Source: Morganella psychrotolerans (lineage in GTDB: Bacteria; Pseudomonadota; Gammaproteobacteria; Enterobacterales; Enterobacteriaceae). From it: 64,000 nt of DNA. The translations under genes and the position numbers were made by a program. The first letter of the stretch is position 1, and every line of letters starts with the position of its first letter. Shown in pieces: positions 40,608 to 47,569 of this stretch. Location of the stretch: the NCBI RefSeq assembly GCF_001676055.1, contig NZ_LZEX01000043.1, positions 1 through 64,000 of the forward strand, in the 5' to 3' direction. The notes under the pieces were generated by a model. That model made no database searches and was not told the origin of the DNA. It saw nothing but the letters and a program-made list of their open reading frames with translations.

Positions 40608-40637
40608 GAAAAAAGCGCCTTGCGGCGCTTTTTTTAT
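40608..40637 (+). terminator. trpS operon terminator
   Basis: AAAGCGCC/GGCGCTTT stem with TTGC loop and a run of T. It also sits just past the adhesin stop on the other strand, with an A-rich left flank, so it may work both ways. Confidence 0.92.
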
Positions 40638-40659: not shown

Positions 40660-41685
40660 TCAGAACCCGAACGCAACACCGGCGCCATAAACGGCACTGT
40701 CTTCGCTGTTCCAGCTGACTGAAGTGCGCAGATTCACGTTATTTTCCATACGCAGCTGTCCACCGAAGGCCACGGCGTTGCCGTTATGGTAATTACCGGC
40801 ACCCAGGCCCACGCTGAAGCGGGTGTTATCGGTATACGGAATGTTGGCCATTGCCGCAACAGAAGCAATACCGGCGTTAGCGCGGTCAGCATTCTTATTC
40901 ATCTGCTGCTCAACAGAGTTAAACCGGCCGTTCATGGACGCTTCAAGCTCCGTAAAACGGGCATTGGTATATTGTTGTCCGGATGAAACCGCTTGTTTAC
41001 GGGAATCATCAATTGCGGAATGAATATTACTGACTTTGTTGTCGGTGTAGCTGTTACTGCTTTTTACCGCAGCCGTTTTGGCATCACTGGTTTTTTGGTC
41101 AGTGTAGTCGTTACTGCTTTTTACCGCAGCCGTTTTGGCATCACTGGTTTTCTGGTCAGTGTAGTCGTTACTGCTTTTTACCGCAGCCGTTTTGGCATCA
41201 CTGGTTTTCTGGTCAGTGTAATCATTACTGCTTTTTACTGCAGCCGTTTTGGCATCACTGGTTTTCTGGTCAGTGTAGTCGTTACTGCTTTTTACTGCAG
41301 CTGTTTTGGAATCGGTAATCGCTGTATTTACTTCAGTGATTTTTGTATCTGTATATCCTTTGCTGCTGCTGACCGCGTCAGTTTTTGCATTATCAATATT
41401 GGTATTAACCGTACGGAGTTTTTGGTCGGTATACCTTTTACTGGACTCTATTGCTTCAGTTTTGGCGTTAGTAATACCCGTTGTCAGTATACTAGTAGTT
41501 GTCTGCATCAGATCCATAGTTTCTCTTCTGGCAGTATTTTGTATATCAAGAGCTTTTCTAGATAACTCGCTATCTGTATAAGCTTTGCTTTTGGCAACAG
41601 CGTCATTGAATGAGTCTGCAGCAAATGAGGCAGATGCGCCTAAAGAAAGCATAGCGATAATTAATATCTTACACTTGGTATTCAT
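40660..41685 (-). CDS. YadA-like trimeric autotransporter adhesin
   Basis: 341 residues. Signal peptide at 1-22 (ends ASFAA). A coiled-coil stalk (about 25-265) is built of repeats, including four near-identical 19-residue units (S-DAKTAAVKSSNDYTDQK-T) plus degenerate ones. The C-terminal membrane anchor (about 275-341) has four beta strands and ends in Phe, as YadA-type barrels do. Three chains would form one 12-strand barrel with the stalk outside. There is no globular head between signal and stalk, so this is a short, stalk-only adhesin. Binding partner unknown. Confidence 0.88.
   Translation of the reverse strand: MNTKCKILIIAMLSLGASASFAADSFNDAVAKSKAYTDSELSRKALDIQNTARRETMDLMQTTTSILTTGITNAKTEAIESSKRYTDQKLRTVNTNIDNAKTDAVSSSKGYTDTKITEVNTAITDSKTAAVKSSNDYTDQKTSDAKTAAVKSSNDYTDQKTSDAKTAAVKSSNDYTDQKTSDAKTAAVKSSNDYTDQKTSDAKTAAVKSSNSYTDNKVSNIHSAIDDSRKQAVSSGQQYTNARFTELEASMNGRFNSVEQQMNKNADRANAGIASVAAMANIPYTDNTRFSVGLGAGNYHNGNAVAFGGQLRMENNVNLRTSVSWNSEDSAVYGAGVAFGF
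41057..41284. repeat. Tandem repeat, 4 x 57 bp in the adhesin stalk
   Basis: Unit starts CTGCTTTTTACCGCAGCCGT; copies begin at 41057, 41114, 41171 and 41228 and differ at only a few bases. A fifth, diverged partial unit starts at 41285. 57 bp keeps reading frame, so copy-number change would lengthen or shorten the stalk by 19 residues. Confidence 0.95.
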
Positions 41686-42116
41686 ACGTAATTTCTCAAT
41701 AATATAAACAAGGATGCGCTGTTATTTTCACAGGGCATATAAGGGGTTGGCTGTTGATATGAGATAAAGTGCAACAATGTTCTGGTAATGAATAATATTT
41801 AGCATAAAGTTTATATTATTCTGTTGTATTTTCAATGTAAATATCATTATATTTACAGCGACATTTTAATCTTTATTACATCAATATTTGATAAACGAAT
41901 GGCGCAAATATACCGGAAAACACCAAGTACAGAGCGGCTGAGACAGGCATTAAAGTAGAAATATATGAATTAATATCTAATACATAAAGTAATACTTAAA
42001 ATATGTTTATCGTTTATTTAATATTATAGTTGAGATGTTATTTTTTAAAAAAATGACTGTATCATGACGATGTAGTCATAAAAGGATTAATTAAAAAAAA
42101 CTAAATAAATAAATAA
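41686..42116. other. AT-rich intergenic, adhesin upstream region
   Basis: About 430 bases, strongly AT-rich, with no gene supported. It holds the adhesin promoter on the minus strand and the 3' flank of the ferredoxin gene. No clear operator seen. Confidence 0.55.
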
Positions 42117-42998
42117 TTACAACCAGCCTTTCTCTTTACGGGACTGGCATATCGGACACAATGTTTGTTCCGGTTGCCAGCTCATAAAAGGCAGATGGCA
42201 GCTTTTACAGTGCGCATCAAAATAAGAATAGTGAACCGGTAAACTGTTTTTTTCTGCCATCGGTACAACGTCAATTGCTTTCGGGAAACAGACATCTTTG
42301 CAGCTCATACAGCCGCTGCATTTGGTTTTATCCACGGTAAACTGATTGTTTTCAATCAGGATAGCGCTTTCCTGACAGACTGCCGCGCAGGCGGAACATA
42401 AAATACACTTCTCTGTGTCCGGGCGGACATCAAACCAGCTGTCATCCGGCCAGAGTTTTTTGCGCTCATTCAGACCGGTTTTCGCCCGTCCCCGGTTTAG
42501 TTCTGCGGCGCCCGCTTTCTGGCGGAACAGTGCAAAGCGTTTTCCGGTATCTATTGGCGCAGGCGGTGCAATCGTCAGTTGCCAGACCGGCTCCTGCAAG
42601 GCTTTCAGGCGCAGATTCAGCTCTGCCAGTACCGGCAGCCAGCTATCCACTTCCGGTTCGGTTATCTGCATGCCGCGGATATGATATTGCCGGTGCCAGA
42701 CCAGCAGTTCCTCAATCTGTGCAGGTGCTTCTTTCTGATTGATAACCAGTTGTGCATTGTCGTTAAACAGACGTTCGCGCACAGGGATATTTTCAATAGC
42801 ATCAGACGGGCAGACAAACAGGCAGTTTCCGCACTGAAAACAGCGCTCATTATCGATCCGGACATCAAGATACCCGAATGAGACGGCATTTGCGGGACAG
42901 TGTGCCGCACAGCTGTTACAGGTGCTGTTTTTGAGTTTCTTCCTGACGCAGCGATTGTTCACTGCACCGCTGACACGACGGGGGTTTGTCAAAGCCAC
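42117..42998 (-). CDS. Multi-cluster 4Fe-4S ferredoxin-like protein
   Basis: 293 residues starting at GTG. Cysteine groups: a first STCNSCAAHCP; CFQCGNCLFVCP (about 53-64); CILCSACAAVC and CSGCMSCKDVC further on; and a C-terminal zinc-ribbon-like CKSCHLP...CPIC. It probably carries four iron-sulfur clusters and passes electrons, or assists maturation, for the neighbouring DmsABC reductase. No Tat signal, so cytosolic. Its first 77 bases overlap the dmsA coding sequence on the opposite strand, and its ribosome site is poor; the true start may be a GTG about 36 bases further in. No close named family recognised. Confidence 0.8.
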   Translation of the reverse strand: MALTNPRRVSGAVNNRCVRKKLKNSTCNSCAAHCPANAVSFGYLDVRIDNERCFQCGNCLFVCPSDAIENIPVRERLFNDNAQLVINQKEAPAQIEELLVWHRQYHIRGMQITEPEVDSWLPVLAELNLRLKALQEPVWQLTIAPPAPIDTGKRFALFRQKAGAAELNRGRAKTGLNERKKLWPDDSWFDVRPDTEKCILCSACAAVCQESAILIENNQFTVDKTKCSGCMSCKDVCFPKAIDVVPMAEKNSLPVHYSYFDAHCKSCHLPFMSWQPEQTLCPICQSRKEKGWL

Positions 42999-45378
42999 CG
43001 GGGCTGCCGGCGGATTAGCCGTCGCAGCCGGTGGATTATCACTTCCTTTCAGTCATGCAGCCACTGCAGCAGATAACACACCAGCAGCAGCGCCACAGGA
43101 AAAAATTGTCTGGAGCGCCTGTACAGTCAACTGCGGCAGCCGTTGTCCGCTGCGGATGCATGTGACTGACGGCGAAATCAGATATGTCGAAACCGATAAC
43201 ACCGGCGATGATGTTTATGAAGAACTTCATCAGGTTCGCGCCTGCCTGCGCGGGCGCTCAATGCGCCGCCGTGTGTATAATCCTGATCGCCTGAAATACC
43301 CGATGAAACGCGTGGGTAAACGCGGTGAAAATAAATTCGAACGGATCAGCTGGGAAGAGGCGTTTGATACTATCGCCGGCACCATGAAACGCTTGATCAG
43401 TGATTATGGCAACGAATCTATTTATCTGAACTATGGTACCGGGACACTCGGCGGCACCATGACTAAATCCTGGCCGCCGGGAGCAACGCTGATCGCCCGT
43501 CTGATGAACTGTTGTGGCGGTTATCTTAACCATTACGGCGACTACAGTACCGCGCAGATAGCGGCGGGTCTGAATTATACCTACGGCGGCTGGGCAGATG
43601 GTAACAGCCCGTCAGATATCGAAAACAGCAAGCTGGTGGTGATGTTCGGGAACAACCCGGGCGAAACCCGTATGAGCGGCGGCGGTGTGACCTATTATGT
43701 TGAGCAGGCACGCGAAAAATCAAATGCCCGCATGATTATCATTGACCCGCGTTACACCGATACCGGTGCCGGTCGTGAAGATGAGTGGATCCCGATCCGT
43801 CCGGGAACCGATGCGGCACTGATCAGTGCGCTCGCTTATGTGATGATCAATGAAGATCTGGTGGATAAACCGTTCCTTGATAAATATTGCGTGGGTTATG
43901 ACGAAACCACCATGCCTGCGGGTGCGCCGGAAAACGGGCACTATAAAGCCTATATTTTAGGTCAGGGCGCGGATGGTGTGGCGAAAACACCTGAATGGGC
44001 AGCAAAAATCACCGGTATTCCGGCAGCCAGAATTGTAAAACTGGCGCGTGAAATCGGAACAGCAAAACCGGCTTATATTACACAAGGCTGGGGTCCGCAG
44101 CGCCGCTCAAATGGTGAAACCGCATCGCGGGCAATCTCAATGCTGTCTATTCTGACCGGCAATGTGGGCATTAATGGCGGTAACAGCGGCGCGCGTGAAG
44201 GTTCTTATGCCATCCCGTTTGTCCGTATGCCGACACTGACCAACCCGGTGAAAACCAGTATCTCCATGTTTATGTGGACTGACGCTATCCTGCGCGGCAA
44301 AGAAATGACCGCGACCCGTGATGGTGTACGCGGCAAAGACAAGCTGGATGTGCCGATCAAAATGGTCTGGAACTATGCCGGTAACTGCCTGGTTAATCAG
44401 CACTCTGATATTAACCGCACTCATGACATTCTTCAGGATGACAGCAAGTGCGAGATGATTGTGGTGATCGATAATCACCTGACCTCTTCCGCGAAATATG
44501 CCGATATTATTCTGCCGGACTGCACCGCATCTGAGCAGATGGATTTCTGTATGGACGCATCTGCGGGCAATATGGGATATGTGATTTTTGCAGACCAGGC
44601 GATCGCGCCGCGTTTTGAAAGCCGCAATATCTATGAGATGACCAGTGAAATAGCCAAACGAATGGGAGTCGGTGACGAATTCACAGAAAACCGTACCCAG
44701 GAAGAATGGTTGCGCCATCTCTATGAGCAATCCAGAGCGGCATTGCCGGAACTGCCGGAGTTTGATGAGTTCCGTAAACAAGGCATGTTTAAAAAACGCG
44801 ATCCGCAGGGGCACCATGTGGCGTACCGCGCTTTCCGTGAAGATCCGCAGGCTAATCCGCTGACCACGCCGTCCGGAAAAATCGAGATCTATTCCGCACA
44901 GCTGGCAGAGATTCAGAAAACCTGGGAACTGAATGAAGGTGATGAAATTCATCCGTTGCCGGTATATGCCGCCGGGTTTGAACATGGCGGTGATCCGTTA
45001 ATGGAAAAATACCCGTTACAGATGACCGGTTTCCATTACAAATCCCGCACGCACTCAACTTACGGCAACGTGGATGTCCTGCAGGCTGCCTGCCCGCAGG
45101 AATTGTGGATAAATCCGGCCGATGCTGCGAAACGCGGAATTGTGCAGGGTGACAACGTCCGGATCTTTAACGACCGTGGCGAAGTCCGCGTCAATGTGAA
45201 GGTTACGCCGCGCATTCTGCCGGGTGTCGTCGGATTGGGTGAAGGCGCTTGGTACAGCCCGGATGGTAATCGTATTGACCACGCGGGCAGCATTAACGTG
45301 TTAACCACTCAGCGCCCGTCGCCGCTGGCGAAAGGGAACCCGTCCCACTCCAACCTTGTTGAAGTCGTTAAGGCCTGA
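42922..45378 (+). CDS. dmsA: Dimethyl sulfoxide reductase catalytic subunit DmsA
   Basis: 818 residues from the first usable start (GTG). Twin-arginine signal LTRRGFVKATGAAGG (about 17-31) then a hydrophobic stretch ending SHAATAA. The iron-sulfur site CTVNCGSRCPLRMH and the Mo-ligand serine in HYGDYSTAQ are present, and similarity to E. coli DmsA is very high throughout. Binds bis-molybdopterin guanine dinucleotide; reduces DMSO and related oxides in anaerobic respiration. The N-region before the Tat motif (LFLSFFLTQRLF) is unlike E. coli, has no good ribosome site and overlaps the divergent ferredoxin gene, so the 5' end looks disturbed. Confidence 0.93.
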   Translation: MLFLSFFLTQRLFTAPLTRRGFVKATGAAGGLAVAAGGLSLPFSHAATAADNTPAAAPQEKIVWSACTVNCGSRCPLRMHVTDGEIRYVETDNTGDDVYEELHQVRACLRGRSMRRRVYNPDRLKYPMKRVGKRGENKFERISWEEAFDTIAGTMKRLISDYGNESIYLNYGTGTLGGTMTKSWPPGATLIARLMNCCGGYLNHYGDYSTAQIAAGLNYTYGGWADGNSPSDIENSKLVVMFGNNPGETRMSGGGVTYYVEQAREKSNARMIIIDPRYTDTGAGREDEWIPIRPGTDAALISALAYVMINEDLVDKPFLDKYCVGYDETTMPAGAPENGHYKAYILGQGADGVAKTPEWAAKITGIPAARIVKLAREIGTAKPAYITQGWGPQRRSNGETASRAISMLSILTGNVGINGGNSGAREGSYAIPFVRMPTLTNPVKTSISMFMWTDAILRGKEMTATRDGVRGKDKLDVPIKMVWNYAGNCLVNQHSDINRTHDILQDDSKCEMIVVIDNHLTSSAKYADIILPDCTASEQMDFCMDASAGNMGYVIFADQAIAPRFESRNIYEMTSEIAKRMGVGDEFTENRTQEEWLRHLYEQSRAALPELPEFDEFRKQGMFKKRDPQGHHVAYRAFREDPQANPLTTPSGKIEIYSAQLAEIQKTWELNEGDEIHPLPVYAAGFEHGGDPLMEKYPLQMTGFHYKSRTHSTYGNVDVLQAACPQELWINPADAAKRGIVQGDNVRIFNDRGEVRVNVKVTPRILPGVVGLGEGAWYSPDGNRIDHAGSINVLTTQRPSPLAKGNPSHSNLVEVVKA

Positions 45379-45389
45379 GGAAGCGAATT

Positions 45390-46007
45390 ATGTCAACGCA
45401 ATATGGTTTCTACATTGATTCAAGTCGCTGCACCGGCTGCAAAACCTGCGAGCTGGCCTGTAAGGACTTTAAAAACTTATCACCGGAAGTGAATTTCCGC
45501 CGCATTTATGAATATGCGGGCGGCGACTGGACTGAGCAGGATGGCGTCTACAATCAGAATGTGTTCGCTTACTATCTTTCTGTCTCCTGTAACCACTGTG
45601 ATGACCCGGCGTGCGCCAAAGTCTGCCCGAGCGGTGCTATGCACAAGCGCGAAGATGGTTTTGTCGTGGTAAATGAAGATATTTGCATCGGCTGTCGTTA
45701 CTGCCACATGGCATGCCCGTATGGCGCGCCACAGTTTGATGAAGTCAAAGGGCACATGACTAAATGTGACGGCTGCTATGAGCGCGTTGCAGAAGGGAAA
45801 AAGCCGATTTGTGTTGAATCCTGCCCGCTGCGCGCGCTGGATATGGCACCGATTGAAGAGTTGCGTGCCAAATACGGCACACTGGCTGAAATCGCGCCGC
45901 TGCCGTCCGCAGAATACACACATCCGAATATTGTTTTAAAACTCAATGCCAACAGCCGTCCTGTCGGGGATACCACAGGCCATCTGGCGAACCCGGAGGA
46001 GGTATAA
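45390..46007 (+). CDS. dmsB: DMSO reductase iron-sulfur subunit DmsB
   Basis: 205 residues, same length as in E. coli. Four 4Fe-4S cysteine groups: CTGCKTCELAC, CNHCDDPACAKVCP, CIGCRYCHMACP and CDGCYERV...CVESCP. Carries electrons from DmsC to DmsA. Eleven bases after dmsA, with GGAAGCG ribosome site, and directly before dmsC. Confidence 0.97.
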   Translation: MSTQYGFYIDSSRCTGCKTCELACKDFKNLSPEVNFRRIYEYAGGDWTEQDGVYNQNVFAYYLSVSCNHCDDPACAKVCPSGAMHKREDGFVVVNEDICIGCRYCHMACPYGAPQFDEVKGHMTKCDGCYERVAEGKKPICVESCPLRALDMAPIEELRAKYGTLAEIAPLPSAEYTHPNIVLKLNANSRPVGDTTGHLANPEEV

Positions 46008-46008
46008 C

Positions 46009-46869
46009 ATGGGATCGGGAATTCATGAATGGCCGCTGATGTTCTTTACTACCCTGGGCCAGAGTGTGGCGGGTGCGTTTATCATCATGGCGGCAGTGCT
46101 GCTGTCCGGGAAGCTCACCCCTGAGATGAACCGGAAAGTGCATTACAGTATGTTCGGGCTCTGGGTATTGATGGGGATTGGTTTCCTGCTCTCCATGATG
46201 CACATGGGCACGCCGATGCGTGCATTTAATGCCTTTAACCGCCTGGGCAGTTCATCGCTCAGTAATGAAATTGCCGCAGGTTCGGTCTTTTTTGCGGCAG
46301 GCGGATTTTACTGGTTGCTGGCGGTACTGAACAAGATGCCTGCTGCTCTCGGTAAGCTCTGGCTGGTGGTGGTGATGATACTGGCGGTGGTATTTATTTA
46401 TGCCATTCCGCAGGTGTATCAGATTGCCACAGTGCCGACCTGGAACACGCCTTACACCACTATCCACTTTGTACTGACGGCATTGCTGGGCGGTCCGCTG
46501 CTTGCAGCACTGTTGTTGCGCATGGCGGGGTTTGATCTGCGCTGCGTCAGCTGGCTGCCGGTGGTGAGCATTATTGCGCTGGTGGTGAGTGTGATTGCGG
46601 CAACGGCTCAGGGCTTTGATCTGGGCGGTATCCGCAGTTCTGTTCAGAATGCCTCTGCGCTGGTGCCGGAGTTCGGTATGTTTATGGGCTGGCGTATGGT
46701 GTTACTGGCGCTGGGTCTGGCATGCTGGGTTCTGCCGCTGATTAAGCGCACTAACCCGCCGGTTATTATGATGCTTGCCGGTTTTGTGTTGGTGCTGGGT
46801 GGTGAGATCATCGGGCGCGGTATTTTCTATGGTCTGCACATGACGGTCGGGATGGCTTATCTCGCCTGA
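46009..46869 (+). CDS. dmsC: DMSO reductase membrane anchor DmsC
   Basis: 286 residues from MGSGIHEWPLMFFT (ATG one base after the dmsB stop, behind GGAGGAGG). Eight hydrophobic helices, as in E. coli DmsC (287 aa), which binds menaquinol and anchors DmsAB. The conserved His in MMHMGTPMRAF (quinol site region) is present. Confidence 0.95.
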   Translation: MGSGIHEWPLMFFTTLGQSVAGAFIIMAAVLLSGKLTPEMNRKVHYSMFGLWVLMGIGFLLSMMHMGTPMRAFNAFNRLGSSSLSNEIAAGSVFFAAGGFYWLLAVLNKMPAALGKLWLVVVMILAVVFIYAIPQVYQIATVPTWNTPYTTIHFVLTALLGGPLLAALLLRMAGFDLRCVSWLPVVSIIALVVSVIAATAQGFDLGGIRSSVQNASALVPEFGMFMGWRMVLLALGLACWVLPLIKRTNPPVIMMLAGFVLVLGGEIIGRGIFYGLHMTVGMAYLA

Positions 46870-46957: not shown

Positions 46958-47569
46958 ATGAGTCAGCAAGCTGTCAGTGATATCGCATTAACCGCCCGTA
47001 TTCTCGGCGCGGCATTTTATTATCCGCCGGAAGAAACAGGGCAGATAACAGAGCTGCTCTCCTCCGGTGACTGGGTGGCGGAATGGCCGTACGGTACTGA
47101 TGCACAAAAGCAGGCGGCAGCAGAAAAACTGCATACCGCAACAGCCGGTGATGAAACGCATGCGCAGGCTTATCAGCGTTTATTTATTGGTCCGCAGGCA
47201 TTACCGGCATCACCCTGGGGCTCAGTCTGGCTCGATAAAGAACAGGTGTTGTTTGGTGAATCGACCGTCGCACTCCGTCAGTGGATGCGCGACCACAATG
47301 TGGATATCGCTCTGACGCAGAATGAGCCGGAAGACCACATAGGTTTGTTACTGATGATGGTGGCGTGGACGGAAGAAAATAATCCGGATGCGGTAAATGC
47401 ACTGCTGGCGGAGCACCTTCTGCCCTGGGCGCGTTACTATCTGGCAAAAATGCAGGAAACCTGCGCAAGCCCGTACTATGAGGGATTGTCTGCCCTGACT
47501 GCGCTGACACTGAATGCCTGGCAGGAAACCCGCCTGATAATACCGGCGGAAAAAACGATTTTTGCCTGA
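46958..47569 (+). CDS. dmsD: DmsD/TorD-family redox enzyme maturation chaperone
   Basis: 203 residues from MSQQAVSDIAL, all-helical, similar in length to E. coli DmsD (204). Conserved PLAL-type features are seen as SPWGSVWLDKEQVLFG and EPEDHIGLLLMMVAW. It binds the twin-arginine signal of DmsA until the cofactor is loaded. Fourth gene of the dms operon; in E. coli dmsD is in the ynf operon instead, so this arrangement is self-contained. Confidence 0.9.
   Translation: MSQQAVSDIALTARILGAAFYYPPEETGQITELLSSGDWVAEWPYGTDAQKQAAAEKLHTATAGDETHAQAYQRLFIGPQALPASPWGSVWLDKEQVLFGESTVALRQWMRDHNVDIALTQNEPEDHIGLLLMMVAWTEENNPDAVNALLAEHLLPWARYYLAKMQETCASPYYEGLSALTALTLNAWQETRLIIPAEKTIFA

Follow-up and report, generated by a model that had tools for sequence, protein, structure and literature searches.

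Comparison with congeners confirms, at the level of sequence, that a 386-bp deletion between short direct repeats has removed the region between a polyferredoxin gene and the divergent dmsABCD operon in a Morganella genome. Our preferred reading, to which we assign a probability of about 0.8, is that this repeat-mediated event took the shared control region and both starts. The operon and the ferredoxin gene would no longer be induced, the event would be recent and another operon of the genome, of YnfF type, would be a possible cushion. The window, i.e. the whole stretch of DNA analysed, is 64,000 nucleotides long. The features of the locus are listed below.

42117-42998, minus strand: ferredoxin open reading frame, 293 aa, opening at GTG.
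42922-45378, plus strand: dmsA open reading frame, opening at GTG.
42922-42998: head-to-head overlap of both frames, 77 bp, made at the junction.
42955-42965, plus strand: deletion junction, where one copy of TTGTTCACTGC remains and 386 bp are missing (one copy and everything between).
42117-42965, minus strand: retained part of the polyferredoxin gene (4Fe-4S), with Fer4 domains; native 5' end lost.
42966-42998, minus strand: ferredoxin frame continuing by chance through antisense dmsA DNA as far as the GTG.
42955-45378, plus strand: retained part of dmsA (NF011566 DmsA, 1639.9 bits, cut-off 1600).
42922-42954, plus strand: dmsA frame continuing by chance through antisense ferredoxin DNA.
45390-46007, plus strand: dmsB, intact (TIGR02951, 254.8 bits, cut-off 214.1).
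46009-46869, plus strand: dmsC, intact (PF04976, 327.2 bits); the start taken is the ATG at 46009.
46958-47569, plus strand: dmsD, Tat proofreading chaperone, intact (NF008632, 244.3 bits, cut-off 162); the start is the ATG at 46958.

The sequence-only reading had described a 77-base head-to-head overlap of coding frames on opposite strands, GTG openings with poor ribosome sites and an atypical DmsA N-region. All three observations hold. The open reading frame coordinates share 42922-42998 and, by eye, there is no Shine-Dalgarno sequence upstream of either GTG. The window DmsA has MLFLSFFLTQRLFTAPLTRRGF in place of the MTKIKETALFTAPLTRRGF, optionally preceded by MY, of M. psychrotolerans. Of the three candidate starts, namely the two present GTGs and an in-frame TTG at 42955, none showed a ribosome site by eye. 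The match to the M. psychrotolerans ferredoxin begins at residue 12 of the window open reading frame, and the ferredoxins of relatives are unmatched over most of 42966-42998. In DmsA, the twin-arginine motif is retained at 42976, as is LFTAPLTRRGF. The GTGs at 42922 and 42998 sit in the antisense strand of the opposite gene. They are therefore chance openings, and the overlap arose at the deletion junction rather than being a designed gene overlap.

DNA from 42100-43600 was used to query the 5 other genomes of the genus; the window species or strain is itself represented by one genome. The sequence-only reading had suggested that relatives might contain an extra segment of 200-400 bp. Such a segment was present in 5/5 congeners, where the matching halves are 355-375 bp apart. 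In each case, matching of the query breaks at base 865 or 866 and resumes at base 856. The identical overlap, named beforehand as an observation that would speak against a deletion, was seen in 0/5 congeners, and we rejected the overlap as a feature of the whole genus. The nearest relative is M. psychrotolerans DSM 17886 (G004; NZ_LZEW01000030.1), with halves that are 92% and 96% identical. This relative has two copies of a perfect 11-bp direct repeat, TTGTTCACTGC, with a spacing of 386 bp (L036 2645 and 3031). Because one repeat copy is counted in, the deletion with respect to M. psychrotolerans is exactly 386 bp. The junction is flanked on the left by the 30 bases preceding copy 1 and on the right by the 30 following copy 2. 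In the M. morganii genomes the left repeat copy has diverged; L037, L038 and L039 hold 0, 1 and 1 exact copies. A 501-base query for the lost segment matched just the two junction sides of the window genome. With no second location found, misplacement of the segment by assembly was ruled out.

Slipped mispairing is a source of spontaneous deletions between short direct repeats. The event described here resembles such deletions in its perfect end repeat, in the one copy kept and in that nothing else is altered. One retained copy is what a slipped-mispairing deletion would leave, and from the repeat length we infer RecA-independent slippage. Thus, the mutation is of an ordinary, known type with an unusually clear footprint; compared with other deletions of its kind, the interest lies in what got removed. 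The divergent ferredoxin/dmsABCD layout is common to the window, M. psychrotolerans DSM 17886 and M. morganii, and the flanks match both junction sides. The relatives still have the promoter region between the genes and both native 5' ends; the window is without the 386 bp.

Both genes have their 5' ends within the segment in the congeners. In M. psychrotolerans, DmsA starts (MY)MTKIKETALFTAPLTRRGF, and the start is nearly identical in the four M. morganii-like genomes. The ferredoxin stretch lost at the junction is IRRSAIKYLMSGDSISAP. Loss of coding DNA amounts to 8-10 DmsA codons and, if the native start is the ATC proposed below, ~18 ferredoxin codons. The comparison with 5 congeners hence supports the earlier proposal that a deletion took the shared control region and both true starts.

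An ATC codon may be the native ferredoxin start, which is lost in the window. The sole in-frame ATG, GTG or TTG of the four M. morganii-like genomes is a GTG, without a ribosome site, 15 nt before VRKKL. A similar frame (IRRSAxxYLxxG) extends upstream of that GTG in the same genomes. The ATC-RR sequence is preceded at 6-8 nt by AGGAG or AGGGG in 5/5 congeners (L120-L124), and two family genomes (L127 and L128) have ATG-RRF at the matching position. Other in-frame ATG and TTG codons are present in the M. psychrotolerans ferredoxin 5' region. Ferredoxin homologues were found in 16/119 family genomes (E<=1e-20), 2 of them Morganella. We rejected the idea that the gene usually accompanies dmsA; tblastn placed it at 4/80 dmsA loci, all Morganella, with loci extending up to 3 kb upstream and some less.

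The frames of DmsA, DmsB, DmsC and DmsD are open and exceed curated cut-offs. DmsA, DmsB and DmsC belong to the same families as those of E. coli dmsABC; the difference is that the FNR-type promoter is gone from the window. According to one account (PMC12096835), E. coli dmsA is under FNR and ModE control, and dmsD is downstream of ynfEFGH; in the window dmsD is directly downstream of dmsABC. We found no literature on dmsA or DMSO reductase in Morganella.

Promoters of FNR class II combine the FNR and −10 consensus sequences at a characteristic spacing. The lost segment carries TTGATGCAAAACAA or TTGATACAAAACAA followed by 21 nt and TACAAT or TAAAAT, which we take, on consensus and class, to be such a layout. 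For a wider survey the layout was defined as an FNR-like site, 20-23 nt and a −10 hexamer, and 80 dmsA loci were kept of 241 confirmed. The 80 include 4 congeners; G001 was read apart. The layout was found upstream of dmsA at 64/80 loci, including 60/76 outside the genus, and in 5/5 congeners; the other 16/80 loci lack it. It was found in 0/1600 dmsA-internal stretches and in 84/1600 shuffled upstream stretches, the latter being the fairer control because base composition is preserved. The window showed no such layout within 400 bp upstream, even when 3 mismatches were allowed.

Absence of an FNR site (TTGAT-N4-ATCAA) had already been proposed from the window, and our analysis agrees. Over the 400 bp that precede the DmsA twin arginine, the best match has 3 mismatches, which is the commonest value for dmsA-body controls (1037/1600, compared with 0 at 1 mismatch, 401 at 2 and 162 at 4). 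Across the surveyed loci, the best FNR-like match has 1 mismatch in 40/80 cases, 2 in 33/80 and 3 in 7/80; some of these matches lie off the usual position and may be due to chance. Sites with 2 mismatches come no nearer upstream than 42342-42359, in ferredoxin coding sequence and >500 bp from dmsA. The whole window contains 57 such sites (44.5 expected, sd 7.45) and 6/100 shuffles reach 57. The sequence at 42342-42359 is a palindrome, CTGATTGTTTTCAATCAG, common to M. psychrotolerans; it provides two overlapping 2-mismatch matches, at chance density.

We propose the following model. The window genome is a sister of M. psychrotolerans, and in its lineage or strain an event such as replication slippage would have occurred between 11-bp direct repeats 386 bp apart, one near the divergent polyferredoxin start and the other within the first dmsA codons. 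Comparison shows that one repeat copy and the intervening DNA are gone, and with them the control region, the FNR-type class II dmsA layout and the native start regions. The overlapping frames that start with GTG are accidental read-outs across the junction. Both dmsABCD and the ferredoxin gene would lose anaerobic induction and would hardly be translated. Thus, dmsABCD is structurally intact and has probably been switched off recently, a putative silence deduced from the DNA. Against silence, an in-frame GTG or TTG would still yield DmsA with twin arginines.

Promoter-like sites between 40400 and 43600 occur at the shuffled level (5 compared with 5.4), and the M. psychrotolerans region has 0 compared with 1.6. 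Since the M. psychrotolerans region is also blank, the scan does not discriminate. A blank scan may be expected of an activator-dependent promoter. Read-through from trpS was considered and is unlikely because a terminator-like hairpin intervenes.

40609-40634, plus strand: hairpin 3' of trpS with runs of A and T, resembling a terminator on either strand; it parts trpS from the dms region.

Between trpS and the ferredoxin gene there is also a trimeric autotransporter-like gene (40660-41685, minus strand; YadA anchor) with tandem repeats of SSNDYTDQKTSDAKTAAVK. In G001, ~60 bp separate the end of trpS from that of the ferredoxin gene, so there is no room for the autotransporter-like gene.

The age of the event was addressed by codon comparison with M. 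psychrotolerans, polarised on other congeners. We excluded 9 non-synonymous and 63 synonymous changes that the outgroups left unresolved. For dmsABCD, the window branch has 8 non-synonymous and 52 synonymous changes, compared with 7 and 57 on the sister branch (Fisher p 0.79). There is no sign of decay in dmsABCD, whether as relaxed selection or broken genes. Purifying selection is unrelaxed in the dms genes, which means a recent loss or an operon that is still functional. In a Poisson model of drift without selection, P is 0.046 for 5% of the window branch and 0.019 for 6%. Hence, if the operon is silent, the silence spans less than ~5% of the window branch, and the event would be recent. For ferredoxin the figures are 7.5/8.5 on the window branch and 4/19 on the sister branch (p 0.04 or 0.15, depending on rounding), which hints, though not firmly, at relaxed selection.

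Four genes of the window genome score above the dmsA/ynfE cut-off. One of these, at C1:174137-176521, stands out with 1272.7 bits. Congeners have 1 to 3 such genes per genome, these being the primary dmsA and others of ~1000-1040 bits. The outstanding gene heads a separate operon.

L118 7642-11554, minus strand: YnfF-type reductase operon with dmsB- and dmsC-type genes, beside argS on contig C1.

We considered this operon as a second dmsABC and dropped the idea; the A subunit passes the YnfF model (1651.8, cut-off 1650) and fails the DmsA model (1320.4, cut-off 1600). No counterpart was seen in the 5 congeners, where the operon DNA matches chiefly primary dms operons (70-72%); shorter matches are to other relatives and argS. 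The closest A protein, among 80 of the 241 loci, is 68% identical. Upstream of the operon are two FNR-like sites with 2 mismatches, at −278 and −89. No dmsD-like protein was seen by eye nearby (open reading frames of at least 130 aa in 19 kb). The operon may cushion the loss of dms; the cushion may be a poor one, since the A subunit fits YnfF and not DmsA. The adjacent argS (L118 5849-7580) comprises two overlapping frames in the window genome and one 579-aa frame in four congeners. In G004 there is the same 423-aa open frame as in the window genome. The split reflects either a sequencing error common to both genomes or a true frameshift.

Other explanations differ in whether the operon is silent and whether the deletion is real. 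The deletion could be real and the operon still expressed, from another promoter, internal to the ferredoxin gene or made by the junction, with translation from TTG 42955 or GTG 42922 and a new leader. We consider this unlikely. It is consistent with the strong purifying selection on the window branch (dmsABCD, 8 non-synonymous and 52 synonymous), with the open dmsA frame and intact twin-arginine motif, and with a promoter-like site in the ferredoxin gene (42204-42232, plus strand, 9/12 matches). However, promoter-like sites in the junction area are at the shuffled level noted above, none of the three candidate starts has a visible ribosome site, and the new DmsA N-region is hydrophobic, unlike a Tat n-region. 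Slightly more doubtful is a scenario in which dmsABCD, freed from FNR control, would be expressed via a new or antisense start with a leader born of the deletion, and the YnfF-type operon would take over anaerobic S-oxide reduction. If true, the strain would show the first step of a regulatory hand-over between related operons.

It is improbable that the junction is an assembly artefact or a minority variant of the sequenced culture. The assembly is a draft of 46 contigs and argS is split by an apparent frameshift in the same genome, though the nearest relative shows an equal open-frame length. However, the join lies at an 11-bp repeat, too short for collapse at usual assembly word sizes. Furthermore, the lost segment is left over nowhere in the assembly, and both junction sides match the relative flawlessly over 30 bases. 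We found no support for an ancestral compact overlap with a segment gained by relatives, which is hardly credible; the segment is in 5/5 congeners, it has coding sequence of both genes, and the promoter layout is also upstream of dmsA at 60/76 loci outside the genus.

The locus is a caution for gene prediction, as two genes with overlapping GTG starts may be called where neither start is real. On our preferred reading, of a recent deletion that left the operon uninduced, the loss of a divergent promoter in a single event, with structural genes intact, would make this a naturally occurring promoter-null allele of dmsABCD in which decay has probably not yet set in. Such an allele would let the decay time of an unexpressed respiratory operon be tested.
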